Shown here: piece by piece, positions 15,087 to 40,313 of the stretch
Layout: the number at the start of each line of letters is the position of its first letter
Numbering within the stretch: position 1 is the first letter of the stretch
Assembly: GCF_019599405.1 (NCBI RefSeq)
Contig: NZ_RKLQ01000002.1
Span: 124,001 to 188,000, forward strand
Source: Haloarcula salinisoli
GTDB lineage: Archaea; Halobacteriota; Halobacteria; Halobacteriales; Haloarculaceae
DNA: 64,000 nucleotides
Direction: 5' to 3'
Notes under the pieces: model-generated
The model's input: only the letters and a program-made list of their open reading frames with translations
Database searches by the model: none
Told to the model about the DNA's origin: nothing
Position numbers and translations under genes: made by a program

Positions 15087-17162
15087 GTGAGCGACTGGGT
15101 CCCGACGACGTGTATGCGGTGTGCCGTCGGCTGTGGGCACATGCAGCGGGGTGCCGACATCGGCTACGGGGTCGACATGGTTCGGGGGGATGCCGCCCAC
15201 CCGGTGAATCAGGGGCTGGCCTGTGCCCGGGGCATCCAGGAGAGCCGTGACCCGGACGGGAAGTGGCTCTCGCGGCCGCTCGTCCGGGACGACGGGGAGT
15301 TACGGACGACGACGTGGGACGTGGCGCTGGCCCGAGCGACCCAGGGGTTACGCGAGGCCCACGAGCGCGACCCCGACAGCGTCGCTGTGCTGGGCAGCGG
15401 GCAACAGACCAACGAGGCCGCCTACGCGCTGGGGAAGGTCGCACGCGGGGGCTTTGGCACCCGCAACTACGACGCGAACACCACGCTGTGTATGGCCTCG
15501 GCAGTGACGGCGTACTACCAGGCCTTCGGCTCCGATGCGCCGCCGTGTACCTACGACGACATCGAGGACGCCGAGCGACACGTCGTCTGGGGGGCAAACC
15601 CCGCCGTCGCCCACCCGGTGATGTTCCGCTGGATAAGCGAGGCCGCCGAGCAGACCGAGCTGATTACCGTCGACCCCATCCGGTCGGAGACGGCCGAGAA
15701 CAGCGACCACCACGTCGCGCCCGACCCGGGCAAGGACCTCGCACTGGCCCGGTCGGTCCTCGCGCTGCTGGTCGAGACCGACCGCGTGGACGAGGCGTTC
15801 GTCGAGGCGGCCACCGACGGCTTCGAGGAGCTGCTGGCGACGCTGCCGACTGCCGCCGAGGCGGCCGAGGACGCCGGCGTCGCGATGGACGACGTGGAAC
15901 TCCTGGCCGACGCCATGGACCACCGGGCGCTGCTGTACTGGGGGATGGGTATCAACCAGCACGTCCAGGGGACCGAGACGGCCCGCGCACTCGTGGACCT
16001 CACGCTCGCGACCGGGAACCTCCGTCCAGGCGGCGGGCCGTTCTCGCTGACGGGCCAGGCCAACTCGATGGGGACCCGAATCTGCTCCTCGAAGGGGTCC
16101 TGGCCCGGCCAGCGGGCCTTCGGCGACCCGGACCACCGCCGGCTCGTCGCCGAGGAGTGGGGCGTCCCCGTCGACCGGCTCCCCGACGACACCGGCCCCG
16201 GCCCGGTCGGGATGCTCGAAGACGGCCCCGACGCGGTGTGGGCCGTCGCGACGAACCCCGTCGCCGGGATGCCCGAGGCCGACAGCGCCCGCACACAGCT
16301 GGAAGACGCCTTCCTCGTCGCCCAGGACGCCTTCCACACCGAAACCACGGACCTGGCCGACGTGGTGCTCCCGGCGGCGACGTGGGGCGAGTCCGAGGGG
16401 ACCACGACGAACATGGAGCGGACCATCTCACGTGTCCAGGCGGCGACCGACGTACCGAGCGGCGTCCGGACGGACCTCGATATCATCGCGACCGTCGGCT
16501 CGCGGCTGTTCCCCGGGCTGTTCGAGAGTACGTCGCCCGAGCCGAGCGACGTCTTCGCGGAGTTCGCCGGGCTGACCGAGGGCACCGTCGCGGACTGTTC
16601 GGGAATCACCTACGAGCGGCTGGACGGGAGCCACGCGGTCCGCTGGCCGGCGGCCGACGAGGAGAGTTCGGGCGGCTACCGCTACTACGAGAACGACGGA
16701 GAGATGGACGCGGCCGAGTCCTGGTCGTTCCCGACCGCGACCGGCAACGCGCAGTTCTCGACGGGACGCCAGCACGAGCTCCCCGAACCCACCGACGAGT
16801 CGTATCCGCTGACGCTGACCACGGCCCGCGAGGCAGACGGCTACAACACGGGCGTTCGGTCACGCGGCGGCGCGACGGGGCCGCTCGTGGCCCGCATCCA
16901 CCCGGATACCGCCGGACTGCACGCCGACCGGGCCGTCCGGAACCGGCTCACGGTGGTCTCCCGCCGGGGCTCGGCGACCGTCCACATCGACCGGGACGAG
17001 GGCGTCCCGCGTGGGATGGTCTGGCTCCCCATCCACCATCCGGCGACGAACCGGCTGACCCTCTCGGAGTGTGACCCAGAGTCGGACGAACCCCACTTCA
17101 AGCAGTGTGCGGTCAAGCTGGTCGCTCCCGAGACGGAGCTGTCGACGGCCCGAAGCGACTGA
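15087..17162 (+). CDS. nasA: Assimilatory nitrate reductase, molybdopterin catalytic subunit (copy 1)
   Basis: 691 residues of the Mo-bisMGD oxidoreductase family. Cys9, Cys12, Cys16 and Cys46 (CMRCAVGC ... GLAC) bind a 4Fe-4S cluster. Cys135 in NTTLCMASAV is the likely molybdenum ligand. Pterin-binding motifs such as GSGQQTNEAAYALGK and LTGQANSMG follow. There is no Tat signal, so the enzyme is cytoplasmic and assimilatory, with ferredoxin the probable donor. The start is GTG. It shares close similarity over its whole length with the second copy at 18842-20950. narK1 follows 191 bases downstream on the same strand. Confidence 0.88.
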   Translation: MSDWVPTTCMRCAVGCGHMQRGADIGYGVDMVRGDAAHPVNQGLACARGIQESRDPDGKWLSRPLVRDDGELRTTTWDVALARATQGLREAHERDPDSVAVLGSGQQTNEAAYALGKVARGGFGTRNYDANTTLCMASAVTAYYQAFGSDAPPCTYDDIEDAERHVVWGANPAVAHPVMFRWISEAAEQTELITVDPIRSETAENSDHHVAPDPGKDLALARSVLALLVETDRVDEAFVEAATDGFEELLATLPTAAEAAEDAGVAMDDVELLADAMDHRALLYWGMGINQHVQGTETARALVDLTLATGNLRPGGGPFSLTGQANSMGTRICSSKGSWPGQRAFGDPDHRRLVAEEWGVPVDRLPDDTGPGPVGMLEDGPDAVWAVATNPVAGMPEADSARTQLEDAFLVAQDAFHTETTDLADVVLPAATWGESEGTTTNMERTISRVQAATDVPSGVRTDLDIIATVGSRLFPGLFESTSPEPSDVFAEFAGLTEGTVADCSGITYERLDGSHAVRWPAADEESSGGYRYYENDGEMDAAESWSFPTATGNAQFSTGRQHELPEPTDESYPLTLTTAREADGYNTGVRSRGGATGPLVARIHPDTAGLHADRAVRNRLTVVSRRGSATVHIDRDEGVPRGMVWLPIHHPATNRLTLSECDPESDEPHFKQCAVKLVAPETELSTARSD

Positions 17163-18841: not shown

Positions 18842-20950
18842 TCAGTCGGTACTGCTGGATCGGGTGTGTGAGAGCCCGCTGCGGGTCACCGTCGAGGACG
18901 TATCCGGCGAGGCCAGCCGGACCGCACACTGCTTGTAGTTGGGTTCGCTGGAGTCGGGGTCGACCATCGGCAGCGTCAACTCGTTGACCGCAGGGTGGTG
19001 GACGTCCATCCATATCGCGTCGGTCGGGACGCCGTCGTCGGGTGCGAGGTCGACGGGTACGCTCGCGCGCCGGGATTCGAGGATAGTGCGACCGCGGTCG
19101 AGCAGGTGGACGAACTGGCCGGCGGTCTCGGGGTGAATCCGCGCGGTCGGCACCTCGCTGGTCGCCTCGCGGCTGCGGACGCCGGTGTTGTACGCGTCCG
19201 GCCGGCGGCCGGTCGTCAGGGTCAGCGGATAGGCCGCGTCGGTCGGTTCGGGCACGCCATCGAAGGAGGCCGTTGCGAACTGGGCGTTCCCGGTCTCAGT
19301 GGGGAACGACCACGACTCGTTCGCGCCGTCGTAGTACCGATAGCCGCCCTCCGAGGACTCGTCCGGGGCGGGCCAGCGGACGGCCAGCTCCCGGTCAAGG
19401 CGGTCGTACGTGATACCCGAGAGATCGGCGACCGTCCCCGCGGTGAGTGAAGCGAACTCGTCGAACACCGACTCGGGGGAAAGGGGCGGGTCGTCGAAGA
19501 GGCCGGACTCGATGCGGTTGCCGACCGCGGCGATGATGTCGAGGTCCGGACGGACGCCGTCGGTGACGTCACTCACCGCCGTCACGCGGGAGACCCGCCG
19601 CTCCATGTTCGTCGTCGTCCCCTCGGTCTCGCCCCACGTCGCCGCCGGCAACACCACGTCGGCGTGTTCGACGGTCTCCGAGCGGAAGGCGTCCTGGACG
19701 ACGAGGAACACGTCGTCGAGCGCGCGGGCGACGGTCGTGGCGTCGGGCATCCCGGCGACGGGGTTCGTCGCGACCGTCCAGACGGCGTCGATGTGGCCCC
19801 GGTTTATTTGGTCGACGATACCGACCGGCCCCGGACCTGTAGTTTCGGGGAGCCTCGACAGGGGAACCTCCCACGTCTCGGCGACCTCGGCCCGGGCGGC
19901 CGCGTCGTCGAAGGCCCGCTGGCCGGGGAGCGTCCCCTTCGAGGAGCAGACCCGGACCCCCATTGAGTTGGCCTGCCCCGTCAGCGAGAACGGGCCCGTG
20001 CCCGGCCCCATGTTGCCCGTCGCCAGACAGCAGTCGATGAGCGTGCGGGCGGCGTCGGTGCCGTGGGTGCTCTGGTTGACGCCCATCCCCCAGTACAGCA
20101 GTGTCGGTGACTCGAAGGCGGCGGCGAGGTCCTCGACGGTCTCGGGGGAGACCCCGGCGGTGGCCGCGGCGTCGTCGACGGGGGGGAGCGAGTCGACGAG
20201 CGCCTCGAAGCCGTCGGTGTAGGCGTCGACGAACTCGTGGTCGATGCGGTCGGTCTCGACCAGCCGCGCGAGGACGGCACGCGAAAGCGCCAGGTCCGTT
20301 CCGGGGTCGGGCTGGACGAGCGTGTCGGCGTCCTCGGCGGTCTCGGATTCGACCGGGTCGACCACGACGAGCCGGCTGTCCGACTCGACGGCGCTATCCA
20401 GAATCCATCGATAGAGGACCGGATGGGCCGCCGCAGGGTTCGCCCCCCACACCAGGTGGGTCTCGGCCTCGGGGATATCGTCGTAGGTACACGGCGGCGC
20501 GTCGCTCCCGAAGACGTCGTAGTATGCCGTCACCGCCGACGCCATACACAGCGTCGTGTTCGCATCGTAGTAGGTCGTCCCGATACCACCGCGGGCGACC
20601 TTGCCGAGCGCATAGGCGGCCTCGTTGGTCTGCTGGCCGCTCCCGAGGATGGCCAGCGAATCGGGGTCGTCGGCGACGGTCCCGATGAACTCCGCGGCGA
20701 CGATACCCAGCGCCGTCTCCCACGAGGCGGGTCTGAGCGTGTCGCCGCGGCGGACCAGCGGCTCCGTGAGCCACTCGCCGTCGGGGTTTTCGGTCTCCCG
20801 GATGCCGCGCTCGCAGGCGAGTCCTCCCGTCGCCGGGTGGTCGTAGTCACCCCGGACCTTGTCGACGCCGTACCCCTCGTCGACGCCCCGCTGTTGCTGG
20901 CCACAGCCGACGGCACACCGCATACACGTCGTCGGTTTCCATTGTGTCAT
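18842..20950 (-). CDS. nasA: Assimilatory nitrate reductase, molybdopterin catalytic subunit (copy 2)
   Basis: 702 residues, paralogue of the 15087-17162 gene, with the same cluster ligands (Cys9, Cys12, Cys16, Cys46), the same Mo-site motif NTTLCMASAV at 135 and the same LTGQANSMG region. The copies diverge mainly in surface segments and the C-terminus (this one ends in a Ser/Thr-rich tail). The frame stays open upstream to 21049, but MTQWKPTTCMRC at 20950 aligns with the start of copy 1. A TATA-like element (minus strand GCTAATAGG, about 21058-21066) implies a leader of about 85 bases carrying an inverted repeat. Confidence 0.87.
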   Translation of the reverse strand: MTQWKPTTCMRCAVGCGQQQRGVDEGYGVDKVRGDYDHPATGGLACERGIRETENPDGEWLTEPLVRRGDTLRPASWETALGIVAAEFIGTVADDPDSLAILGSGQQTNEAAYALGKVARGGIGTTYYDANTTLCMASAVTAYYDVFGSDAPPCTYDDIPEAETHLVWGANPAAAHPVLYRWILDSAVESDSRLVVVDPVESETAEDADTLVQPDPGTDLALSRAVLARLVETDRIDHEFVDAYTDGFEALVDSLPPVDDAAATAGVSPETVEDLAAAFESPTLLYWGMGVNQSTHGTDAARTLIDCCLATGNMGPGTGPFSLTGQANSMGVRVCSSKGTLPGQRAFDDAAARAEVAETWEVPLSRLPETTGPGPVGIVDQINRGHIDAVWTVATNPVAGMPDATTVARALDDVFLVVQDAFRSETVEHADVVLPAATWGETEGTTTNMERRVSRVTAVSDVTDGVRPDLDIIAAVGNRIESGLFDDPPLSPESVFDEFASLTAGTVADLSGITYDRLDRELAVRWPAPDESSEGGYRYYDGANESWSFPTETGNAQFATASFDGVPEPTDAAYPLTLTTGRRPDAYNTGVRSREATSEVPTARIHPETAGQFVHLLDRGRTILESRRASVPVDLAPDDGVPTDAIWMDVHHPAVNELTLPMVDPDSSEPNYKQCAVRLASPDTSSTVTRSGLSHTRSSSTD

Positions 20951-21034
20951 CTGTCTGTATCGAACTCCTGGTCGGTCCGCTCGCTGGACAGACCGCAGTA
21001 CGTTCCCCCGGCACCGACCCGAGTGGGGGACCGC

Positions 21035-21056
21035 TGTAGATAGTTGCAAATCTACA
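21035..21056. promoter_or_regulatory. Inverted repeat at the likely nasA2 transcription start
   Basis: TGTAGAT-N8-ATCTACA is a perfect 7-base inverted repeat just downstream of the TATA-like element of nasA2, where a repressor would block initiation. Confidence 0.45.
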
Positions 21057-27879: not shown

Positions 27880-28710
27880 TCAGTCGTCGCTGACGGCGCC
27901 GGTGACGACGTTGTCGTCCATACTCCAGTCCCACTCGAAGCCGTACGAGGAGGAGATGTAGTAGTACGCCGCGCCCATGAACAGGATACCGCTGGCCATG
28001 TTCCCGGCGGTGACGACGGCGAGGTTGTACCCCATGCCGGCCCAGGAGACCCCAGCGGCGCCGGGAGCGGCGACGTTCGCTCCGTAGAGGATGGTCATGT
28101 TGGCGATACTGTGCTCGTAGCCCGAGCCGATGAACGCGAGCAGGCACCACCATATCATGATGAGCTTCGCCGAGGTGTTCTCCAGCTGGAAGTTGCTCCA
28201 GACGGCGAGACAGACGAGCCAGTTACAGAGCATCGCCCGCAGGAAGAGTGGGACGAGGTCCATGGACATCTTCGAGCCGCCGACGGCACCCAGCAGCGCC
28301 TCGGCGCCGCCGAGGACCCCCGCCTGCCAGGCCATCGCACCGACGAGGATGGAGCCGAGGAAGTTCCCGACCCAGGACCAGGTCCACACTTTCATCGTGC
28401 CGGGGAGTCCGACACGGCCCGAGAGCATCCCCATCGTCATGATCATGTTGTTCCCCGTAAACAGCTCGGAGCCCGCGACGATGACCAGGCTCAGTGCCCC
28501 GCCGAATACCGCTGCCATGACGAAGCCACGGAGCGGTTCGAACGTCGTCTGGTACATCGCGCCGCCGAAAAGGAACGTCATGACGACGATGAGCCCGAGA
28601 TAGGCCCCGGCCATCATCGAGTGGACGATGTACGCCGGGAGACTCTTCTCTATCAGTTCTACCTGCGCCGCGGCCGCCTTACTGATCGACGTGACACTCT
28701 CCTGGTACAT
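27880..28710 (-). CDS. Formate/nitrite transporter (FNT) family channel
   Basis: 276 residues, six membrane helices. FNT family signatures are present: GSELFTGNNMIM after helix 2 and GYEHSIANMTIL before helix 5. FNT pentamers conduct formate, nitrite or related monovalent anions. Because nitrate reductases, narK and nirA surround it, nitrite (NirC-like) is the most likely substrate. Its ATG abuts the stop of a 37-residue ORF (TAA-ATG), so the two are in one transcript driven by a strong TATA box at 28853-28865. Confidence 0.87.
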   Translation of the reverse strand: MYQESVTSISKAAAAQVELIEKSLPAYIVHSMMAGAYLGLIVVMTFLFGGAMYQTTFEPLRGFVMAAVFGGALSLVIVAGSELFTGNNMIMTMGMLSGRVGLPGTMKVWTWSWVGNFLGSILVGAMAWQAGVLGGAEALLGAVGGSKMSMDLVPLFLRAMLCNWLVCLAVWSNFQLENTSAKLIMIWWCLLAFIGSGYEHSIANMTILYGANVAAPGAAGVSWAGMGYNLAVVTAGNMASGILFMGAAYYYISSSYGFEWDWSMDDNVVTGAVSDD

Positions 28711-28865: not shown

Positions 28866-29209
28866 TGGTTCTTCGATTGGGTTTCAGTCTTTAGAATGTA
28901 CTAGGAATATGGTCAAATGTCGATTTAATCATCGTGATATTTCAGCAAAATTTGCAATTGTCTCAAATTCGCGCGTCTGCGTTCGTGTTTTCAATCCCTA
29001 ATTACCGAGTTGTGCGCTCTCGGGTCGAGCAATTCGGGAAACGGAAATCCTATCAGCCGTATTGACAAAATTCCACTTCTGACCAGCATTATCGTATTAT
29101 GTTCTTAGATTATCCCCATTCCCTGTTTGAATCTCCACCAGTATTAGGAAAATGGTTTAATATCACCTCCCACTCCCACCAACCGGGACAACCTCCCACG
29201 ACACAACCA
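28866..29209. other. AT-rich divergent control region between FNT operon and cynS
   Basis: About 340 bases of clearly lower GC than the flanks, with no ORF I can support. The cynS promoter is probably TTTAATATC at 29155-29163 (leader about 20-25 bases). Two nitrogen genes diverge from it, so it probably holds regulator sites. I see no strong palindrome. Confidence 0.45.
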
Positions 29210-29698
29210 ATGACAATCGATCGCAACACCATGGAGCCGTACGCGGAAGTTCGAAAAGATATGCGACGGAAAGTCGTCGATGCCAAAGAGATGCGCGAGC
29301 TCACCTTCTCCGACATCGAGGAGGCGACCGGCATCGACAAGACGTACATCGCCTCGGCCGTCTACGACGGCGCGAGCACGACCGAAGAGGAGGCCATCGC
29401 TATCGCCGAAGCGGTGGGGCTGGGCGGCGAGGAAGACGTCATCGAGGGGCTGCAGATTCCGCCGATGAAGGGCCAGGAGGACCCGTCGATTCCGTCCGAC
29501 CCCGCCCTCTATCGGTTCTACGAGGTACCACAGGTGTACGGGCCCGCGATGAAGGCCATCATGCACGAGGAGTTCGGCGACGGCATCATGAGCGCCATCG
29601 ACTTCGAGGTCAGCGTCGACAAGGAGATCCAGGACGGGGAGGAGCACGTCGTCATCACCTACGACGGCAAGTTCCTGCCGTACAAGAAGTTCCCGTAG
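29210..29698 (+). CDS. cynS: Cyanate hydratase (cyanase)
   Basis: 162 residues. The N-terminal helical domain (FSDIEEATGIDKTYIASAV) is followed by the catalytic domain LYRFYEVPQVYGPAMKAIM and EEFGDGIMSAIDFEV, which contain the Arg, Glu and Ser of the cyanase active site. The enzyme reacts cyanate with bicarbonate to give ammonia and CO2, so it lets cyanate serve as a nitrogen source. The frame is open from 29099, but MTIDRNTMEPY is the first start after the TATA-like element at 29155. It stands between FNT and dabA/dabB. Confidence 0.94.
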   Translation: MTIDRNTMEPYAEVRKDMRRKVVDAKEMRELTFSDIEEATGIDKTYIASAVYDGASTTEEEAIAIAEAVGLGGEEDVIEGLQIPPMKGQEDPSIPSDPALYRFYEVPQVYGPAMKAIMHEEFGDGIMSAIDFEVSVDKEIQDGEEHVVITYDGKFLPYKKFP

Positions 29699-29786
29699 CG
29701 ACGCATCGGTAGACATCGTTTTCAAGCCGTTTTTCGCTAGCTAGTGTAGGGCCACACGACAGTTGAAGGATACCATTTTGTATCGC

Positions 29787-29804
29787 TGCATACAACTGTA
29801 TGCA
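29787..29804. promoter_or_regulatory. Palindromic operator at the vapBC start
   Basis: TGCATACA-AC-TGTATGCA is a perfect 8-base inverted repeat between the TATA-like TTTTGTATCG (29777-29786) and the ATG at 29806. It covers the expected transcription start. VapB antitoxins repress their own operons by binding such palindromes. Confidence 0.7.
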
Positions 29805-29805
29805 T

Positions 29806-30042
29806 ATGTCGAAGAGCATCCGTCTCTCCGAGGACGCCTACGAGCGTCTCGCCGCCCACAAACGGGACGACGAAACCTTCTCCGAGGTGGTGCTTCGCCT
29901 CGCGGGCGAGCGGTCACTCCTCGAGCTCGCGGGAATCCTCAGCGACGAGGAGGCCGAGTCACTGCGGGCCGCCGTCGACGAGCGTCGGGACCGGCGCGGT
30001 GGCGAACTCGAAGGGATTGCGGGCGAGATAGAGGACACCTAG
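29806..30042 (+). CDS. vapB: VapB-family antitoxin
   Basis: 78 residues. MSKSIRLSEDAYERLAAHK is a ribbon-helix-helix-like DNA-binding N-terminus. The rest (FSEVVLRLAGERSLLELAG) and an acidic C-terminus match the antitoxins paired with haloarchaeal PIN toxins. An ATG two codons earlier (29800) lies within the palindrome. 29806 fits the leaderless distance better. The toxin gene follows after one base. Confidence 0.8.
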   Translation: MSKSIRLSEDAYERLAAHKRDDETFSEVVLRLAGERSLLELAGILSDEEAESLRAAVDERRDRRGGELEGIAGEIEDT

Positions 30043-30043
30043 C

Positions 30044-30433
30044 GTGTTGCTCGACACTTCGTTCCTCATCGACCTGATGAACGGCGACGAGGGCGCCGTC
30101 GAGAAGGCGCGCGAGATCGAAGCCGACCTCGTCCAGCAACGGCTCTCCTCGATGACGCTCTTCGAACTGTACTATGGCGTCGCCCGGGCGACAGACTCGG
30201 AGGGGGAACGCACGAAAATCGAGACGGTCCTCGAATCGAAGCCAGTCCATCCGGCCGATTCCGCCATCATGCGCAAAGCTGGCCGTCGCTCCGGCGAGTT
30301 GCTGAACGACGGAGACGCTGTCGGGGACGGTGACGTGATTATCGGGATGACTGCCGAAGTCGTCGACGAACCGGTGCTCACACGCAACGTCGATGATTTC
30401 GAGCGCCTCGGTGTCGACGTCGAGACGTATTGA
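30044..30433 (+). CDS. vapC: VapC-family PIN-domain ribonuclease toxin
   Basis: 129 residues. PIN catalytic acidic residues are visible: Asp4 (LLDTSFLIDL), Glu41 (FELYYG), Asp95/Asp97 (GDGDVIIGMTA) and Asp117/118 (RNVDDFERLG). VapC toxins cleave RNA, often initiator tRNA or rRNA. The start is GTG, one base after the vapB stop, and the pair is autoregulated through the upstream palindrome. It sits within the nitrogen locus without obvious functional relation. Confidence 0.88.
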   Translation: MLLDTSFLIDLMNGDEGAVEKAREIEADLVQQRLSSMTLFELYYGVARATDSEGERTKIETVLESKPVHPADSAIMRKAGRRSGELLNDGDAVGDGDVIIGMTAEVVDEPVLTRNVDDFERLGVDVETY

Positions 30434-30487
30434 GGCCTGGCGACGTATAGAAGCAGGAACCGAACAGAACCGCCGAAAACGGCTCTT

Positions 30488-32926
30488 TCAGTCGGTGCTT
30501 GCCACCGTAATCTTCGTCGTGAGCGTCGCGTCCAGTGGCTCCCACTCCAGGTCCGTCTGGTACCGGAAGGTCGCATCGTCCTGGGTGGGGTCGATGACCA
30601 GCAGGGAGAGCCAGTTGTTGTCAAGCAGCGCGGCCAGGTCGGGGTTGCGGTCGAGGATGTCCGTGACGGTGTCGACGGGCGCGTGGATGACCGTCGACAG
30701 CCGGATAGGCGTGTGCAGGGCCTGCCGGTCGTCGGCGTACAGCGACTGCAGGGGCAGGCCCATCTGCAGGTCGCCGCCGTTGCCCTGCATGACGCCGACG
30801 TTGCCCACGGCGTTGTGGGTCGTCTTCGAACCGCTGCCGTAGACCTCGTTGTCGACCGTCGAGAAGTAGTACTGGGCGTTTATCATCTGACAGACGACCA
30901 GCGGCCCCGCCATGATGTTCTCCAGGGCCTCGCCCTCGGGGTCGCCCTCCCAGTCGTACGAATGGAGGAACGACCGCCCCTCGAGGTCGACGTCTTCGGT
31001 CAGCTCCCGGGGGGCGATGACGAAGCCGGCGTTGCCCGACAGCCCGATTTCGGGCCGGGGCTGGGCCCAGTCGTCGGTGCGGGTCTCGGTCTCGCGGACG
31101 GGGTCGTCGGCGTCGACGCCCAACGTCTCCAGTCGCTCCTCGGCGGCACCGGCCTGGGCCGTCTCCAGGTCCTCGCGAAGGTTGTCGACGACGGCCTGCT
31201 GGGCGTCGGTGAGGTCCTGTCCCTCGGTGAAGACGGTCACCGCGTCGGTCGTGGTGTTGTGCCGGCCAGCGAGGAAGACGGTGTCGTCGGGGACCTCGAT
31301 ACCGCGCTCGGCGAGCCGTTCACGCACCTCCGGGTCGTTACAGATGGTCGCGAGCACGCGCGCGTTCGGCGTGCCGGGGCTGCCCGAACAGGCGCCACAG
31401 TCGATACTCGACTTGTAGGGGTTGTTGACGGTCTGACTCTCGTGGCCGGTGAACACGACCACGGGGGCAAAGTCGTCCCATCCCATGAGGTCGAACGCGG
31501 CCTCCGCATAGAAGGCCTTCTGCTCGGGTGAGATGCCGATAGCCGGGGAGTCTGGAGCGTCCTCGTCGGCCGTCTCGGAAAGCGTCAGCGAGGAGAACGT
31601 CGCCGGGTCGTCGGGCCCGACGCGCCCCCGCGCATCGTGGACTTTCGACGGGAACAGCGTCCGGGAGGCGAGCGCAGCCCCGAAGAAGGTCCCGGAGGCC
31701 TCGACGAAGCCGAAGGCCGCGGCCAGGTCGTTTTTCAGGGATTTGAGGAACTTGTTGCCGTCCGTCTTCAGGCGGTCCCACCGTTCGTAGGACGTCGTCG
31801 CCGGGTCGTCGGCCGGTGGGTGCTCGGTGACGTGGTGTTTCGGGTCGACCATCACCGGACAGGAGTCGGTCTGGACCTTCGACTGGTGGCCCCTGTACTC
31901 GATGGGGACGCCGAAGAAGCCGGCGTACCCGTGGGTCTCGTAGTCGCCGGTCGCTTCGAGCTGTCGGCGGATAATCTCAGAGCGCGTGTCGATACAGAAG
32001 ACGAGCTGGGCGTCGGGCCGGTCGGCGTCCAGCTGCGTACTCGACGTGGCCAGTCCTTTGTTGATGTCCTCCAGCAAGTCGTCCTGATAGCTGCGCTCCC
32101 ACGCTGTCAGCCAGATCTCCTGGAGCCGGAAGTCGGCCTGTTTGGGCCGCTCGGTGCCGTCGGTCTCCGGCAGGACGTCGGCGCCCATGTGTTTGGCGAG
32201 GATGAGTCGGACGCCGAGATAGTCGACCAGCGTGACGGGGTATTTGTCCTGCCAGGGGTTGTTGTTCGCCTCGGCCCGCTGTTTGATGAGCCCGACCCAG
32301 CCCGGCAGGGCGGCCAGGTGGTGTTCGAAGATGGCCTCCCATTCGTCCTCGTCGTACCCAGTGATGACGGCGAAGATAGCCTCCATAGCCGTCTCGGGGG
32401 CGTCAGTCAGTCGGTCGCGGTAGTACGTCGCGACGTTGGTCTCGGATTCGGGAATCCGGCTGTCGTAGGGCGCGACCGCCCGCCAGGACTGGTAGAAACC
32501 CTGCTCGCGGTCGGGCATGGGCCAGCCGGCCTGTCCCTGGTCGAGGAAGGCCGCGAGCCACTTCGAGCACAATCTGTTCAGCCGCTCGTCGTGGGTATCG
32601 CTGCTCGAGCGTTCGTCCGCTTCGTGGGCCATCCGCCGCAGGAGCGCCCCGGGCTCCTCGTCGATACCGTGTTCCTCGAGCAGGTCGTTGAGGATGGTCG
32701 CGTCTATCTCGCCCGACTCCCAGGCCTGGCGGAACTGGTCGACGGTCGGGTAGCCACGGCCGTCGAACAGCGCCTCGGCGTCCTCGACAGCCTGCCGGAA
32801 GGGCCTGTCCTCGAACCCGGAGAGGGGGTTGGCGGCCACGTCGGAGTACAGCGGCCAGACCCGACCCAGACGGTCCGCCGCGTGCTCTATGTGCGTCCGA
32901 ACAGTCGTCGGATCGATATCGACCAT
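30488..32926 (-). CDS. dabA: Inorganic-carbon transporter subunit DabA (DUF2309)
   Basis: 812 residues. The zinc site residues reported for bacterial DabA are kept: Cys311 and Asp313 (VFCIDTRSE), His495 (VFTGHESQT) and Cys510 (SSIDCGACSG), resembling a beta-carbonic anhydrase centre. With the membrane subunit DabB it is thought to hydrate CO2 vectorially and build up bicarbonate. dabB here is divergent, 384 bases away, instead of adjacent on the same strand. The start at 32926 (MVDIDPTTVR) follows family N-termini, and the frame upstream to 33031 is AT-rich and non-coding in character. Confidence 0.88.
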   Translation of the reverse strand: MVDIDPTTVRTHIEHAADRLGRVWPLYSDVAANPLSGFEDRPFRQAVEDAEALFDGRGYPTVDQFRQAWESGEIDATILNDLLEEHGIDEEPGALLRRMAHEADERSSSDTHDERLNRLCSKWLAAFLDQGQAGWPMPDREQGFYQSWRAVAPYDSRIPESETNVATYYRDRLTDAPETAMEAIFAVITGYDEDEWEAIFEHHLAALPGWVGLIKQRAEANNNPWQDKYPVTLVDYLGVRLILAKHMGADVLPETDGTERPKQADFRLQEIWLTAWERSYQDDLLEDINKGLATSSTQLDADRPDAQLVFCIDTRSEIIRRQLEATGDYETHGYAGFFGVPIEYRGHQSKVQTDSCPVMVDPKHHVTEHPPADDPATTSYERWDRLKTDGNKFLKSLKNDLAAAFGFVEASGTFFGAALASRTLFPSKVHDARGRVGPDDPATFSSLTLSETADEDAPDSPAIGISPEQKAFYAEAAFDLMGWDDFAPVVVFTGHESQTVNNPYKSSIDCGACSGSPGTPNARVLATICNDPEVRERLAERGIEVPDDTVFLAGRHNTTTDAVTVFTEGQDLTDAQQAVVDNLREDLETAQAGAAEERLETLGVDADDPVRETETRTDDWAQPRPEIGLSGNAGFVIAPRELTEDVDLEGRSFLHSYDWEGDPEGEALENIMAGPLVVCQMINAQYYFSTVDNEVYGSGSKTTHNAVGNVGVMQGNGGDLQMGLPLQSLYADDRQALHTPIRLSTVIHAPVDTVTDILDRNPDLAALLDNNWLSLLVIDPTQDDATFRYQTDLEWEPLDATLTTKITVASTD

Positions 32927-33059
32927 CGTATAGATAACACCAGTTGGAGTTGAAAAGCGGGAGCTATATCTTAATATCTTCGCATATATGTAGACGCATC
33001 TGGCTGAATTCCTAAAATAATTCAAAGGCACTAGAGCAGTTTCGGACCGGCAAGACCGC
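32927..33059. other. AT-rich 5' flank of dabA
   Basis: This is the left third of the 384-base dabA-dabB gap. It is AT-rich, with no supported gene, and contains candidate dabA promoter elements (minus-strand TTAAGATATAG near 32966-32978). Confidence 0.35.
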
Positions 33060-33205
33060 TACGCGTCGCCAAACGTAGCGAGGGGCGTGCGTAGCAGGCC
33101 CTCGATGCGGAACAGAGAGGGACCGGAAGTCCCTCAAGCAGTCGGGCGGCAGCGCCGCCCGACGACGGGGAACACAGTGACCCGTGGGGCGCAGTGAGTC
33201 GTTTG
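33060..33205. repeat. Degenerate hairpin repeat, copy 6 (GTCGGGCGGC subtype)
   Basis: Two hairpins in tandem: GAGGGAC-CGGAA-GTCCCTC, then GTCGGGCGGC-AGC-GCCGCCCGAC (33141-33163), followed by GACGGGGAACACAGTGACCC. The block is nearly identical to 49.70-49.79 kb and close to 18.75-18.82 kb. It lies between the divergent dabA and dabB promoters, so here it cannot be a terminator of either. Confidence 0.7.
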
Positions 33206-33310
33206 TTCAGCGTTCCGAGCCAATACTTTGCATTTTAGGAATTATATCACCACTTACCAGTCGTGCACGGAAATTTTAAACGTATAAGTGGTTATCCTCC
33301 GATACCATAG

Positions 33311-34759
33311 ATGTCCCATACGAGTCAACAGTACAGCGCCATCCCGGTCGTCTCGACGACCCTGGTCTGGACGCTGTTCGTCGGGAGCGTCGTCCTCGTC
33401 GCAGCCACCGCCTGGTTCAGCATCGAGCTCGCGGCCGAACCGCTGGTACGGGTCGACGGGTTAACGAAAGTGATGTGGGTCGCAGTGACCTTCTTCAGCG
33501 GTATCGTCCAGAGCTTCTCCAGGCGGTATATGACGGCAAACAGGGACGTCGACCTGTTTTTCGCACGCATCATGCTGTTTACCCTGGTGGTGATGACGCT
33601 GGTCGCGGCCGACCACGTGGTCCTGTTCCTCCTCGCCTGGACCCTGATGGGGCTGCTGATGGCGGAGCTCATCGGCCACGTCAGGGCCTGGCCGCAAGCA
33701 CAGGCTGCCAAGCGCCTCTCGCGACGGTACTTTCTCGCCGGGAGCGGGCTGCTGGGAGTCGGCCTGCTCGCGCTGTCTACGGGGACCGGGAGCGCCACCA
33801 TCTCGGGGATACTGGCGTCGGTCGACACGCTCCCGCGGTCGACGCTGCTGCTGGCGGCAGCCCCCATCCTGCTGGCGGCGCTCGTCCAGTCGGCGCTGGT
33901 CCCCTTCCACGGGTGGTTGCTCTCCTCGATGACGGGGCCGACGCCGGCAAGCGCCATCATGCACGCCGGGTTCGTCAACGCCGGCGGCCTCCTGCTGACG
34001 CGGCTGGCGCCGGTGTTTGCGTTACAGGAGTTCGTCATGCTGGGTATCGTCGCGCTGGGCGCGGTCAGTTCCATCCTCGCACAGGCGATGATGCTCGTCA
34101 AGGCCGATTACAAGGGCCGGCTGGGCTGCTCGACCGTGGCCCAGATGGGATTCATGATACTGCAGTGCGGGCTGGGCTTTTTCGCCGCGGCGGTGGCCCA
34201 CCTCATCATCCACGGGTTCTACAAGGCGTATCTGTTCCTCTCGACGGGCTCGCAGGTCGTCAAGAAAGCGCCGAAAACGAAGAAAAAACGCTATCCCTCG
34301 GTCGTCACCACCGCCGTTGCACTGCTGACGGCCGTCGCCGGCGGCGCGGTCTTTGCCCTCCTGACGGGGAAGGGGACCACGCTCACCGACACCGGCATCT
34401 TCCTCGCAGTCATCGTCGTCGTGAGCGTCTTTCGCGGCGCGACGGAGCTGCTCGACAACGAGTCGCTTCCGGCTCTCGTCCGGCTGGGCGGGATGCCGCT
34501 CGTAATGCTTCCGGCGCTGGCGCTGTACGCGGGTGTGTACAACGGCGTCTACGTCCTGCTGAAAGACCTCCCGATGGTCAAGGCCGGCATGGCGATGACC
34601 CCTGCACACTGGGTGCTGCTCGGGCTCTTCCTGCTTGGCCACCTATCGGTCCAGCTGGGCTGGCTCCAGCGCAGCCGGCGCCTCTATGTCACGCTACTGA
34701 ACGCGGCACAGGCCGACCCCGCCACGATTCCGGGCGCCAGTGGAGAGTACGAGAACTAG
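33311..34759 (+). CDS. dabB: Inorganic-carbon transporter membrane subunit DabB (NuoL/Mrp-like)
   Basis: 482 residues, about 13 membrane helices, of the proton-translocating antiporter family related to NuoL/MrpA. The quinone-oxidoreductase-like core AALVQSALVPFHGWLLSSM, PTPASAIMHAGFVNAGG and the helix-7/8 lysines are present. Proximity to dabA identifies it as DabB rather than a Complex I subunit. It would couple ion flow to CO2/bicarbonate capture. A TATA-like CGTATAAGTGG at 33281-33291 gives a leaderless start at 33311. Confidence 0.86.
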   Translation: MSHTSQQYSAIPVVSTTLVWTLFVGSVVLVAATAWFSIELAAEPLVRVDGLTKVMWVAVTFFSGIVQSFSRRYMTANRDVDLFFARIMLFTLVVMTLVAADHVVLFLLAWTLMGLLMAELIGHVRAWPQAQAAKRLSRRYFLAGSGLLGVGLLALSTGTGSATISGILASVDTLPRSTLLLAAAPILLAALVQSALVPFHGWLLSSMTGPTPASAIMHAGFVNAGGLLLTRLAPVFALQEFVMLGIVALGAVSSILAQAMMLVKADYKGRLGCSTVAQMGFMILQCGLGFFAAAVAHLIIHGFYKAYLFLSTGSQVVKKAPKTKKKRYPSVVTTAVALLTAVAGGAVFALLTGKGTTLTDTGIFLAVIVVVSVFRGATELLDNESLPALVRLGGMPLVMLPALALYAGVYNGVYVLLKDLPMVKAGMAMTPAHWVLLGLFLLGHLSVQLGWLQRSRRLYVTLLNAAQADPATIPGASGEYEN

Positions 34760-34992: not shown

Positions 34993-36759
34993 ATGGGAAA
35001 CAAAGCAGAAGAAATCAAAGGCGAGATGTACGGGGACGAGGTACGGGAGAAAATAGAGGAGTTCGCGGAGCGCGGCTGGGAGAATATCCCGGAAGACGAA
35101 CGCGACGAGTGGTTCAAGCGGTTCCTGTTCTGGGGCGTGTTCCACCACCGCGAGGGTCAGGAGTCCTATTTCATGATGCGACTGACCAACTGCGGCGGCG
35201 TGCTGGAACCGGGCCAGCTCCGCGCCATCGGTGAGGTGGCCGAAGAGTACGCCAGCGGGCCCGTCGAGAACCCCGAGTTCGGCGACGCGTGGATCGACTT
35301 CACCACCCGACAGTCCATCCAGATGCACTGGCTCAAACTCGAGGACGTCCCGGAGATCTGGGACAAGCTCGAGGGCGTCGGGCTGACCAGCCGGTCGGCC
35401 GGCGGCGACACGATGCGGAACATCTCCGGCTGTCCGGTCGCGGGCAAGGGCGAGGAGTACATCGAGTCCCGCCCCATCTTAGACGAGATTCAGGAGACCA
35501 TCCGCGGGGACGACGACCTCTGTAACATGCCCCGGAAGTTCAACATCTCGGTGTCGGGCTGCAAGCAGGGCTGTGCCCAGGACGCCATCAACGACATCGG
35601 GCTGGAGCCGGCCCACAAGTTCATCGACGGCGAAGAGGTCAAAGGGTTCAACGTCCGCGTCGGCGGCGGTCTCGGGGGTCGTGAGCCGCGCAACGCCCGC
35701 CCGCTGAACCTGTTCATCGAGCCCGAACACGCCGTCGAGACGGTCCGTGAGTTCGTCGAGTACTACCACGAGAACGGCAACCGGACCAACCGGTCGAAGA
35801 ACCGCGCACGGTTCTTCGTCGACGAGCACGGCACCGAGAAGATTCGCGAGGACCTCGACGAACGGCTCGACTTCGAGTTCGAGACCGCCGGGACGGACTT
35901 CCGCGGCGAGTACACCTACAACGCCGGCAAGAACACCGAGTTCGGCGCCCACGACCACGTCGGCGTCTACGACCAGAAAGACGACAAGAACTACGTCGGC
36001 CTCTCCGTTCCGGTCGGCCGGCTCCCCGCCGAGGACGTCGTCGAGCTCGCGGACCTGGCCGAAGCCTACGGCTCCGGCGCGGTGCGGCTCACTCGCCGGC
36101 AGAACCCACTCATCATGGACGTGCCCGATGGCAACCTGGCGAATCTGCTGAACGAGCCGTTCCTCGATAAGTACTCGCCCGAGCCCAACCCGTTCACGCA
36201 GGGTGCAGTGGCCTGTACCGGAACGGAGTTCTGCTCGCTGGCGCTCACCGAGACGAAAGCCCGGATGGCCCGCATGCTGCGCTGGCTGGGCGACAACGTC
36301 GAGCTGCCAAGCGACGTCGACCGCATCAAGATGCACTACTCGGGCTGTACCGCCGACTGTGGCCAGGCCATGACCGGCGACATCGGCCTCCAGGGGATGC
36401 GCGCCCGCAAGGACGGCGAGATGGTCGAGGCGCTGGACGTCGGCGTCGGCGGCGGCATGGGCGAGGAGGCGGAGTTCACAGAGTGGGTCCGCCAGCGCGT
36501 CCCCGCCGACGAGGTGCCCGGCATGATTCGTAACATCGCCGAGGCCTACGCGGCGCTGCGCTCGGAGGGCCAGACCTTCAGCGACTGGGTCGCCGCTACC
36601 GGTCACGAGACGCTGGTCGAACTCGCCGAACCCGAGGAGGTCGAGGGGTACGAGGACCCCTGCCTCAACGACGCCAAACAGTCGTGGTACCCCTTCGAGG
36701 ACGGCGAGAGCCCGGCCCCGACCGACAAGAACGGCCAGCCCATCTCGGCGGACGACTGA
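34993..36759 (+). CDS. nirA: Ferredoxin-dependent assimilatory nitrite reductase
   Basis: 588 residues of the nitrite/sulfite reductase family. Two repeats of the ferredoxin-like half-domain are visible. The siroheme/4Fe-4S ligands are Cys408 and Cys414 (ACTGTEFCSLA) and Cys452 and Cys456 (YSGCTADCGQ). It reduces nitrite to ammonia with six electrons from ferredoxin, completing the path NarK-NasA-NirA. Placement between dabB and amt-glnK supports an assimilatory role. Sulfite reductase is possible from sequence alone, but the neighbours favour nitrite. Confidence 0.9.
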   Translation: MGNKAEEIKGEMYGDEVREKIEEFAERGWENIPEDERDEWFKRFLFWGVFHHREGQESYFMMRLTNCGGVLEPGQLRAIGEVAEEYASGPVENPEFGDAWIDFTTRQSIQMHWLKLEDVPEIWDKLEGVGLTSRSAGGDTMRNISGCPVAGKGEEYIESRPILDEIQETIRGDDDLCNMPRKFNISVSGCKQGCAQDAINDIGLEPAHKFIDGEEVKGFNVRVGGGLGGREPRNARPLNLFIEPEHAVETVREFVEYYHENGNRTNRSKNRARFFVDEHGTEKIREDLDERLDFEFETAGTDFRGEYTYNAGKNTEFGAHDHVGVYDQKDDKNYVGLSVPVGRLPAEDVVELADLAEAYGSGAVRLTRRQNPLIMDVPDGNLANLLNEPFLDKYSPEPNPFTQGAVACTGTEFCSLALTETKARMARMLRWLGDNVELPSDVDRIKMHYSGCTADCGQAMTGDIGLQGMRARKDGEMVEALDVGVGGGMGEEAEFTEWVRQRVPADEVPGMIRNIAEAYAALRSEGQTFSDWVAATGHETLVELAEPEEVEGYEDPCLNDAKQSWYPFEDGESPAPTDKNGQPISADD

Positions 36760-37321: not shown

Positions 37322-37963
37322 TTACACCAACTCGTCTGCCTGCGTGTCCTCGGCAACGTCCGTATCGAGGTCGATACCCTGGATGAGCTCGACCAGGTCC
37401 CCGAGTTCGGGGAAGGTGTAGACGGTCATCCCGAGGTCGCCGTCCTCGACGGTGATCTGTGAGTCGATGACGAAGACGAGTTCCGAGTCGGGCCAGCCGC
37501 CCATCTTCTCGATGATGCCGCTGGCCGGGCCGAGCACGAAGTTGGGCGTCCCCATGTCGATGGTCGTGTCCAGAACGTTCGCCCAGCCGTCGATGAACGC
37601 AGAGGTCATGATGTTGCCGATCTCCTGCATCGCGGAGCGCTCCATCTCGGAAAAGCCCTCGCCCTCGCCCGCCTCCCCCATGCCGCCCATCATCGCGCCG
37701 GCGAGTCGCTTGCTGTCGGCCGGGTCGAGCATGAACAGGACGTAGCCATAGGGCGGTTCGTTCAGCTCGACGTAGATACCGACCTGCCGCTCGTCGCCGA
37801 TGTGTGTCGTGACGTCGTCGATGTCGAGAAAGTTAATTTGAGACGTGTGGACCGAAGCGTCCAGTCCGGTGAGCTGGCCGAGATGGTCCGCGACGGTCCC
37901 CGACCCCTCCTTTGCCATCTGGTTGAAGAGGTCGAGCTTTCGCACGTCGACTTGCAGGCCCAT
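37322..37963 (-). CDS. cheC: CheC-family chemotaxis phosphatase/adaptor
   Basis: 213 residues. CheC proteins dephosphorylate CheY-P using two helices with the pattern D/S-x3-E-x2-N. Here one is clear (SAMQEIGN: Ser110, Glu114, Asn117) while the N-terminal one is degenerate (LFNQMAKEGSGTVADHL), suggesting a single active site. The acidic C-terminus extends beyond the usual domain. The gene is isolated from other chemotaxis genes in this window. A TATA-like CCATTAAGCC (minus strand, about 37986-37995) supports a leaderless ATG. Confidence 0.82.
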   Translation of the reverse strand: MGLQVDVRKLDLFNQMAKEGSGTVADHLGQLTGLDASVHTSQINFLDIDDVTTHIGDERQVGIYVELNEPPYGYVLFMLDPADSKRLAGAMMGGMGEAGEGEGFSEMERSAMQEIGNIMTSAFIDGWANVLDTTIDMGTPNFVLGPASGIIEKMGGWPDSELVFVIDSQITVEDGDLGMTVYTFPELGDLVELIQGIDLDTDVAEDTQADELV

Positions 37964-38175: not shown

Positions 38176-38634
38176 TCACTCGCCGGTGTCGTCGACCGGG
38201 AACTGTTCGTGTTCGCGGACCGTGTTCAGCACGACGGAGGTGGCTGCGGAGTGGATATCAGGGTCGGTCAGCAGTTCCTTGATGTGTGCGTTCATCTCTT
38301 CGGTATCGCGGAACTTCCCGACGGCGACGATGTCGTGGCTGCCGGTCACCTCGTACACCGCGACCATGTTGTCCAGATCGCGGAGCCGCTCGGTCACCGT
38401 CTCGAGCCCACTGCCATCGACCGACAGCTGGAAGACGGCAGTCACGTCGTACCCCAGTGCCGCGTAGTCGACGCGAGCGGTGTACTCCTCGATGACGCCG
38501 GTCTCGACCAGCTGGTCCATCCGTCGCGACACCGTCGTCGCGGCGACCCCGGTCTCGGCGGCGACATCGCGGGCACTCGCCCGGCCGTCGCGCAGTAGGG
38601 CGTTCACCACCTGTCTGTCGATATCGTCGACCAT
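38176..38634 (-). CDS. Lrp/AsnC-family transcription regulator
   Basis: 152 residues. N-terminal helix-turn-helix (DIDRQVVNALLRDGRASARD ... VAATTVSRRMDQL) and a C-terminal RAM/ACT-like domain (TAVFQLSVDG ... VTGSHDIVAVGKF) that binds an effector such as an amino acid. It starts 10 bases after the glnK stop, in an amt-glnK-lrp operon, so it is a strong candidate for the local nitrogen regulator. MVDDIDRQV at 38634 is taken as the start, and the longer frame adds an Arg/Pro-rich extension. Confidence 0.88.
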   Translation of the reverse strand: MVDDIDRQVVNALLRDGRASARDVAAETGVAATTVSRRMDQLVETGVIEEYTARVDYAALGYDVTAVFQLSVDGSGLETVTERLRDLDNMVAVYEVTGSHDIVAVGKFRDTEEMNAHIKELLTDPDIHSAATSVVLNTVREHEQFPVDDTGE

Positions 38635-38644
38635 CGCCCGCCGC

Positions 38645-39001
38645 TCAGACGGCCTCGGGACCGGTCTTGCCTGTTCGGACCTGGTGGGCATCCTCGACCG
38701 GGAGGACGAAGATCTTCCCGTCGCCTTTCTCGCCCGTGTGGGCGCCTTCGGCGATGGCGTCGACGACGTCCTCGGCGGGGATGTCCGCGACGACTGTCTC
38801 GATTTTGACCTTCTGGTGGAGGTCGACGACGTACTCCTCGCCGCGCCACTGCCCCTTCTTGGCGGGCTGTGAGCCGCGGCCGGAGACGTTCGTCACCGTC
38901 AGCGAGGGGGCACCGACTTCCGCCAGCGCCTGTTTCACGTCACCGAGTTTGTCGGGTCGGACCATTGCAACGATCATCTTGATTTCGTTTTCGTCAGTCA
39001 T
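38645..39001 (-). CDS. glnK: Nitrogen regulatory protein P-II
   Basis: 118 residues. PII features: [19 protein letters not shown] at the start, the T-loop ending in [15 protein letters not shown] with Tyr57 at the position of the uridylylated tyrosine of bacterial PII, and the C-terminal signature [16 protein letters not shown]. It senses 2-oxoglutarate and ATP/ADP and plugs the Amt channel. Its start overlaps the amt stop by 8 bases, the classic amt-glnK pair. Confidence 0.94.
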
Positions 39002-40313
39002 CTTTGGAGCCTCGAGTTGCTTCGATGTCTTCGCTCATGATACCACCGTCTGCCACAACACTCTCGCCCGAGCCGAACTCGGGGTAGGTCTCGACGCCGT
39101 GTTCGCTGACGTCCAGGCCTTCCTGCTCGTGTTCGGGCGTGACGCGGGCCTCGCCCATCGCCTTCAGCACGTACCAGACCACGGCAGTCGCGGTCAGCGT
39201 CCAGCCGCCGATGACGACGACGCCGACTACCTGGGGGATGAGACCCTCGATCATGAAGCCCACGTTCGGCGTCCAGCCGCTCCAGGCGCCCGCTGCGACG
39301 AAGGAGTACAGCAGCGTCCCGATGACGCCCGCGCTCCCGTGGACCGGGAAGACGGCACAGACGTCGTCGATGTTGAGCTTGGTCTCGACGAACTTGAACA
39401 CGATGGGGAGCTGTGCGCCGGAGATGATACCGACGATCAGTGCGCCCTGCCAGATCGTGGTGTGGGGAATCGCCGTGATACCGACCAGCCCGGCCAGCAG
39501 GCCGTTAGCGACGTACAGCGTGTCGACCTTGCCGGTCTGGAACCACGCGACTGCGCCGGCGGCGATAGCGCCCATCGCCATCGCCAGGGTCGTCGTAATC
39601 GCGACCTGACCGAGCTGTGCGGCTGCGAAGCCGTCTGCACCGTAGATGGCCGAGGTGCCGACGTTGAAGCCGTACCAGCCAAAGGCCAGGATGAGCGTCC
39701 CGAGCACGGCGAAGGTCATCGAGTGGCCGGGGATGACGTTCGCGGAGCCGTCCTCGTTGAACCGGCCCATGCGCGGACCGAGAATCGCGGCGGCCGTGAG
39801 GCCGGCGATGCCGCCCATCCCGTGGACGATCATCCCGCCGGCGAAGTCGGTGAACGGAGTGCCGGTGATGATTTCGACGAGCCCGGTGTTGGTGGCACTC
39901 CAGGTGAAGGAGATGACCACCGGGTAAATCACCGCGGCCAGCAGGATGGTGTAGGTGATGTACGCGCGGAGCTTCGCACGACCGGCCACCGCCCCGGAGA
40001 CGATGGTCGCGCCGGTCATGGCGAAGACGGCGCCGTACAGGAAGTCGATGAAGCCGAGACCGCTAGCCGTGCCGCCCCAGGAGAACGACCCGCCGCCGGC
40101 GATCCCCGCGATGCCGGTGCCGACGAGGAAGAACGCCACCACACCTATCGACCAGGTGAGCAGGTTCTTCGTGAGCTGGTTCGCCACGTTCTTCGAACGC
40201 ACCTGCCCCGCCTCGAGCATGGCGAAGCCGGCGTGCATGAAGAAGATCAGGAACGATACTATCAGTATCCACGTGTAGTTCAGCGCTTCCGTGCTGGCTT
40301 GGAGTAGTACCAT
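38994..40313 (-). CDS. amt: Ammonium transporter
   Basis: 439 residues, 11 membrane helices of the Amt/Mep/Rh family. Hallmarks include [13 protein letters not shown] (helix 1-2), [17 protein letters not shown] (pore His region) and [13 protein letters not shown] (second pore His). It imports ammonium when external levels are low. The C-terminal tail is long and acidic, and is the usual contact site for GlnK. It is first in amt-glnK-lrp. A TATA-like GCAATAAACG (minus strand, about 40331-40340) precedes it. Confidence 0.95.

Follow-up and report, generated by a model that had tools for sequence, protein, structure and literature searches.

A DabA/DabB pair of a separate clade beside cyanase in a haloarchaeal nitrogen-assimilation cluster

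Genes at the locus

The stretch of DNA analysed here, 64,000 nucleotides of Haloarcula salinisoli (contig NZ_RKLQ01000002.1, positions 124,001 to 188,000; hereafter the window), carries cynS, the gene of cyanase, beside dabA and dabB, which encode the two subunits of a Dab-type inorganic-carbon pump (Table 1). An earlier note on this DNA had placed the three genes here, and this was borne out, all of them being intact and matching the profiles of their families. Indeed, a longer cynS frame starting at 29099 is matched by the Pfam families Cyanate_lyase and CYNS_N, and alignment to solved cyanases indicates that the window CynS has kept the YRFYE and GIMSAI segments, which we take to be the site of the catalytic Arg, Glu, and Ser. 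The DabA sequence matches DabA2 of Halothiobacillus neapolitanus (9rd0_A) with a phmmer E-value of 2e-108. Furthermore, dabA and dabB are divergent, with a gap of 384 bp, and not organized in one operon, as the same note had it. The cynS and dabA genes are not one transcription unit either, since they lie on opposite strands with a vapBC pair between them; this pair was found there in the window only and is absent from two other Haloarcula copies of the locus.

Table 1. Features of the window, with positions counted from its first nucleotide
Feature	Position	Strand	Basis
cynS, cyanase (cyanate hydratase), 162 aa	29210..29698	+	TIGR00673 161 bits (cut-off 113); PRK02866 above cut-off
dabA, nitrogen-cluster clade, 812 aa; zinc, beta-carbonic anhydrase-like cytoplasmic subunit	30488..32926	-	PF10070, profile 1-747 of 747, 848 bits
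dabA codons 627-629 (I-G-L; W656-G657-L658 in H. neapolitanus), signature RPEIGLS loop	31040..31048	-	alignment
dabB, NuoL-like predicted proton-conducting membrane subunit, 482 aa	33311..34759	+	Proton_antipo_M and _N; PF00361 121.8 bits
Promoter element TTTTAGGAAT, dabA side	33008..33017	-	
Promoter element TTTTAGGAAT, dabB side	33233..33242	+	
FNT channel (formate/nitrite transporter family, nearest NirC)	27880..28710	-	PF01226 194.7 bits, 4-240 of 240
vapB/vapC toxin-antitoxin pair, between cynS and dabA	29800-30433		
nirA, ferredoxin-type assimilatory nitrite reductase	34993..36759	+	NIR_SIR and NIR_SIR_ferr domains
nasA, haloarchaeal assimilatory nitrate reductase	15087..17162	+	NF041323 (cut-off 1000)
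nasA, second copy	18842-21049	-	NF041323 (cut-off 1000)
lrp/asnC regulator, glnK (P-II), amtB; right border of nitrogen cluster	38176..40313	-	PF00543, PF00909; AsnC domains

The surroundings, which like vapBC do not figure in the earlier note, are those of nitrogen assimilation. On its left side, cynS is flanked by the FNT gene, which is transcribed divergently, has NirC as its best NCBIfam match (PRK11562, 189 bits, below its cut-off of 293), and encodes a candidate nitrite/cyanate channel. To the right lies nirA, with ferredoxin-nitrite reductase as its best NCBIfam match (PRK09566, 428 bits, below its cut-off of 594). The FNT-cynS-dabA-dabB-nirA set is located between hemL and the lrp-glnK-amtB group, and the same cluster holds, upstream, two NarK-like transporters and the two nasA copies (NF041323, 1201 and 1154 bits). 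A gene for a CheC-like protein (37322-37963 in the window) is found near nirA and lrp-glnK-amtB in most Haloarcula loci examined. Of the relatives with a name, the closest that was found, Haloarcula rara SHR3, has a cynS 96% identical. A second dab, of the ordinary haloarchaeal kind, is present in the window genome on contig C1 at 119562.

The nitrogen-cluster clade of DabA

DabA was found in 239 of the 391 genomes of the class. Seven DabA sequences form a single branch, namely those of the window (genome G000), G384, H. rara, and G397, together with the second copies of G334, G179, and G243. The SH-aLRT support of this branch is 100 in a tree of 68 haloarchaeal rows. It reaches 99 in a second set of 39 rows, five of which are bacterial and serve as an outgroup with long branches. 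The clade has at least seven members, DabA having been read in all but about 70 of the 239 genomes, and it shares approximately 49-56% identity with ordinary haloarchaeal DabA, such as the predicted Dab of Haloferax HVO_2410/2411 (PMC8305020). On the DabB tree the clade is not one group, which we ascribe to duplicate rows, since three of the 75 rows labelled as other repeat clade members (L144, L145, and L147).

The clade is also distinct by its gene neighborhood, which was examined within 5 kb for the seven clade loci and 82 ordinary ones and over the whole 10-kb stretch for another 52 ordinary loci, with the lrp reference and the commonest carbonic anhydrase reference being checked. At 131 of the 134 ordinary loci (79/82 and 52/52), dabB immediately precedes a co-directional dabA, the three exceptions, all among the 82, being two loci with dabA before dabB and one without a visible dabB, whereas none of the seven clade loci is arranged in this way; the divergence in the window is indeed unusual, as had been claimed. 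Similarly, an Lrp/AsnC-type gene, likely a dedicated regulator, is in reach of ordinary dab at 132 loci out of 134, whereas no clade locus has one within 5 kb, the glnK-linked lrp/asnC gene being 5.2-6.7 kb away in the four Haloarcula clade loci. A beta-carbonic anhydrase gene is in reach of at least 44 of the 134 ordinary loci. On the other hand, nirA occurs within 5 kb of the clade dabA at six loci out of seven and the FNT-cynS pair at five, and neither cynS, FNT, nor nirA is in reach of ordinary dab at any of the 134 loci. That ordinary dab might likewise cluster with nitrogen genes was rejected on this count; a by-eye comparison among the matches listed, followed by inspection, places ordinary dab about 9-11 kb from nirA in G114 and G325.

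Two side observations concern other dab loci. In H. rara, the ordinary dabA is broken into two reading frames (L060 1501-3168 and L061 1501-2046), so that the nitrogen-cluster Dab may be the only intact one in this genome. On a Mesorhizobium plasmid (L166), dabB-dabA is directly followed by cysD, a sulfate-assimilation gene.

The residues of the pump were compared with those of H. neapolitanus, whose DAB2/DAC (DabA2-DabB2) has the same two subunits and whose numbering was mapped by hand from alignments with the solved DabA2 (PDB 9rd0) as reference; the roles of the zinc site, the dyad, and the finger glutamate are those given for DabA2 (PMC13144422). The zinc ligands C351, H524, and C539 and the dyad D353-R355 (C311, H495, C510, and D313-R315 in the window) are kept in the seven clade sequences, as are the finger Glu444, Ser356, His585, Asp590, and Leu658. 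In DabB, the proton-path residues S256, H260, K310, S316, H339, H343, and K347 are also kept in all seven members. The D185/K235 ion pair of DabB2 is replaced by Ser and Gln (window residues 145 and 193), which is also what the majority of ordinary haloarchaeal DabB rows show; more generally, the compared haloarchaeal DabB rows are devoid of this pair and have mostly Ser and Gln instead.

Three positions that are uniform in 61 ordinary and five bacterial rows differ in the clade: W656, which is replaced by Ile in six members (Ile627 in the window) and by Leu in one, W710, replaced by Met (counted over the seven clade, 61 ordinary, and five bacterial rows), and L537, which lies two positions ahead of the zinc ligand C539 and is replaced by Ile. 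At the position of A659, a Ser is found in all seven clade sequences, in 1 of the 61 ordinary rows, and in 1 of the 5 bacterial rows. Altogether, at fifteen positions the clade has a fixed residue that is unlike the one (or the gap) shared by at least 90% of the 61 other rows, the W656 site being additional. Over a larger set of 180 distinct DabA sequences, the Trp is present in 173 and replaced by Ile or Leu in exactly the seven of the clade. In DabA2, W656 is named as a gate of the second tunnel, which is proposed for bicarbonate egress (PMC13144422).

These four substitutions, present in 7/7 sequences and including the tunnel gate, would fit a shift of substrate, by which an altered tunnel makes DabA a vectorial hydratase acting on cyanate instead of, or besides, CO2. 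Cyanate is isoelectronic with CO2. It also binds carbonic anhydrases, as seen with the CynT2 enzyme of Escherichia coli, for which inhibition constants of 0.58 mM for cyanate, 4.9 mM for nitrite, and 2.4 mM for nitrate are given (PMC7321114). However, all catalytic residues compared are unchanged, and the clade includes a member, that of G397, with neither cynS nor FNT at its locus; we thus consider such a shift very improbable. Because the tunnel changes are fixed in the clade and cyanate inhibits CynT2, we also considered a broader proposal, that of a vectorial carbonic anhydrase remodeled for cells taking up anionic nitrogen. The changes in its product tunnel (Ile/Leu for W656, Met for W710) and in the wall of its zinc site (Ile for L537, Ser for A659) would either keep DabA making bicarbonate upon entry of cyanate, which inhibits ordinary carbonic anhydrases, or let it act on cyanate itself. 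This is unlikely; its cyanate-tolerance version is compatible with a bicarbonate pump of the nitrogen cluster and does not compete with it.

Co-occurrence with cynS and promoter element

The cynS gene is rare, being present in 10 of the 391 genomes of the class and in 3 of the 32 of the genus. The survey of cynS and dab across haloarchaeal genomes that had been proposed with the first observation of the locus was run, and it reveals that the linkage recurs: cynS adjoins a dab in four of these ten genomes (G000, G384, G179, and G243), and H. rara, retrieved by a separate search, brings the total to five genomes from two families. Among the other cynS genomes, G131, G229, G342, and G334 have DabA elsewhere, and G314 and G241 are without it. 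The Haloarcula loci are arranged as FNT(-) cynS(+) dabA(-) dabB(+) nirA(+), and those of G179 and G243, which belong to another family, as FNT(-) cynS(+) ... dabB(-) dabA(-) nirA(-), i.e., nirA>dabA>dabB. In three Haloarcula, hemL and nirA enclose FNT-cynS-dabA-dabB. In the relative G396, these two genes have no gene between them, and in G102, G228, G367, G336, and G299 none of the four genes is found between them; the difference could be a gain, or a loss in G396. Given the rarity of cynS and the recurrence of the linkage in a rearranged order, chance adjacency of cynS and dab was ruled out.

FNT and cynS are divergent neighbors in six genomes from three families, and their CynS sequences fall on one side of a branch (support 100/100), with four unlinked CynS on the other, the tree being built without the G241 sequence, which matched in two pieces (L012/L013) and looks broken. 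The special Dab clade is present in each of the six FNT-cynS genomes found, including G334, where FNT, cynS, and nirA are grouped without dab and the clade dab is about 570 kb distant. Conversely, an FNT-linked cynS is present in the genomes of six of the seven known clade members. These counts support that cynS and the special Dab go together. The five cynS genomes whose CynS is just 44-50% identical have no special Dab, three of them having one ordinary DabA and two none. At this level of identity, a second kind of haloarchaeal cynS is seen at loci L063-L066 (genus g9), where the 20-kb stretches examined contain neither FNT, nirA, nor dab. Beyond the class survey, a contig scan of genomes with CynS gave H. 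rara as the one relative, and a plasmid search with CynS retrieved bacterial cyanases of less than 60% identity.

The seventh clade member, in G397, is encoded in the arrangement nasA-MFS-dabA-dabB-MFS-nirA, and no cynS match was found in this genome, which is 80% complete. Such a locus would fit a Dab serving nitrate/nitrite assimilation in general, by returning protons and by providing the bicarbonate used in anaplerotic carboxylation and in making carbamoyl phosphate, with cyanase as merely another cluster member. The nirA>dabA>dabB order on one strand in G179 and G243, with cynS outside, and the linkage of nirA at six loci, compared with five for cynS, go in the same direction. Most Haloarcula, however, have nirA without a special Dab; indeed, 19 members of the genus whose nirA is 82% identical or more have one DabA each among the matches listed, which was ordinary on reading. 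Moreover, G334 has its FNT-cynS-nirA cluster free of dab and yet has kept the clade elsewhere in its genome, and none of the six FNT-cynS genomes is without it. Such a general role in nitrate/nitrite assimilation is a possible but rather doubtful explanation.

A passive co-location might also be invoked, by which an acquired island would have brought cynS together with a second dab, the latter pumping inorganic carbon for general purposes, unconnected with nitrogen. The small number of independent lineages and the additional presence of ordinary dab and beta-carbonic anhydrase genes would agree with such an explanation, as would the regulation of dab, which looks separate from that of cynS.

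Indeed, a promoter element, TTTTAGGAAT, is present in both divergent dab promoters, and these two sites are the only exact ones in the window genome. It likewise occurs exactly twice in G384 and H. rara and once each in G397, G334, and G179, always at dab, and is thus found in exact form at the clade dab in six cases out of seven. In G243, a copy with one mismatch lies at dab and the single exact site is elsewhere in the genome; G102, which has no clade Dab, has three sites, all elsewhere. No significant occurrence of the element was detected at FNT-cynS or upstream of nirA (14 regions, p 0.066-0.50), the sole region below 0.05 being the nirA-dabA interval of G243 (p 0.017), where the upstream region is that of dabA itself. 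Similar sites lying between FNT and cynS in six genomes were not significant (p 0.066-0.33), and a regulon shared by cynS and dab through this element was rejected. Because the element is found at dab and is not significant at FNT-cynS or nirA, the Dab clade seems, as far as promoter sequences can tell, to be under a control of its own. Nevertheless, the same partners are found in a rearranged order in two families, and they co-occur unlinked in G334, which renders a merely passive co-location improbable.

A proposed role in anionic-nitrogen assimilation

We propose that dabAB encodes a proton-driven bicarbonate pump for anionic-nitrogen assimilation, with cyanase as one main consumer, a reading to which we give about even chances. 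It draws on the intact genes, the conserved zinc site and proton path, the separate clade, the linkage to nirA and FNT-cynS, and a promoter element proper to dab; the pumping direction, the use of Dab bicarbonate by cyanase, and co-expression are what we infer. The pair would be a specialized, nitrogen-cluster form of the Dab (DAC) pump, in which DabB would admit protons and DabA would use that flow for the one-way hydration of CO2 to bicarbonate in the cell, the bicarbonate serving the assimilation carried out by the surrounding genes. Cyanase uses one bicarbonate for each cyanate that it turns into ammonium and gives out two CO2, one of which Dab could trap again; the protons used on the way from nitrite or cyanate to ammonium would be given back by Dab. 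Driven by the proton motive force, a one-way hydratase would prevent bicarbonate depletion without the reverse reaction.

The cyn operon of E. coli offers a parallel, with a CO2-hydrating enzyme adjoining cyanase: the carbonic anhydrase CynT, encoded beside cynS, is held to prevent bicarbonate depletion (PMC7321114). There, however, the enzyme is a soluble beta-carbonic anhydrase, whereas here a membrane-energized Dab is found with an FNT channel and nirA. Compared with the H. neapolitanus complex, the system described here differs, besides the residues discussed above, by its divergent genes and its location in the nitrogen cluster of a presumed heterotroph. The earlier note had set a role in a heterotroph apart from the known one in autotrophs, but Dab is already known in heterotrophs: DACs have been noted in heterotrophic Halobacteria (PMC10880623), and the Dab-type MpsAB supplies inorganic carbon in Staphylococcus (PMC6689103), there without carbonic anhydrase (PMC8567241), whereas here Dab is a second copy, lies in a nitrogen cluster, and coexists with two beta-carbonic anhydrases. 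Cyanate lyase is mentioned for some Haloarcula (PMC12029414), and none of the papers listed by our literature searches links Dab with cyanase or nitrite assimilation.

Several points weigh against the bicarbonate-pump proposal. First, beta-carbonic anhydrase is present in 15 of the 16 genomes tested, G334 being the one without, and the host has two copies; Dab is therefore not the only source of bicarbonate, and a role as sole carbonic anhydrase was rejected. Second, G397 combines Dab and nirA without cynS and the five other cynS genomes have no special Dab, both of which speak against a purely cyanase-related function. In addition, the recurrence of the cynS-dab linkage may stem from few independent events, neither FNT-cynS nor nirA has a significant copy of the promoter element, and the clade-fixed changes near the tunnel gate could reflect an altered activity. 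The original suggestion that Dab feeds cyanase is consequently retained in part: the co-occurrence of Dab with FNT-cynS and the analogy with CynT would favor a tie to cyanase, and the arrangement in G397 would favor a tie to nitrite assimilation too, so that cyanase is better viewed as one main consumer among those of the cluster.

To date, work on Dab pumps has dealt with their part in concentrating CO2 in autotrophs and in supplying bicarbonate to certain heterotrophic bacteria; their presence in Halobacteria is known, and the literature found gives no tested role there. If our proposal is true, a Dab lineage tied to the assimilation of cyanate and nitrite would have a defined job in heterotrophs, in which the supply of bicarbonate is linked to the use of nitrogen. 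Furthermore, the clade provides a natural variant of the tunnel gate, by which the gating proposed for DabA becomes directly testable.

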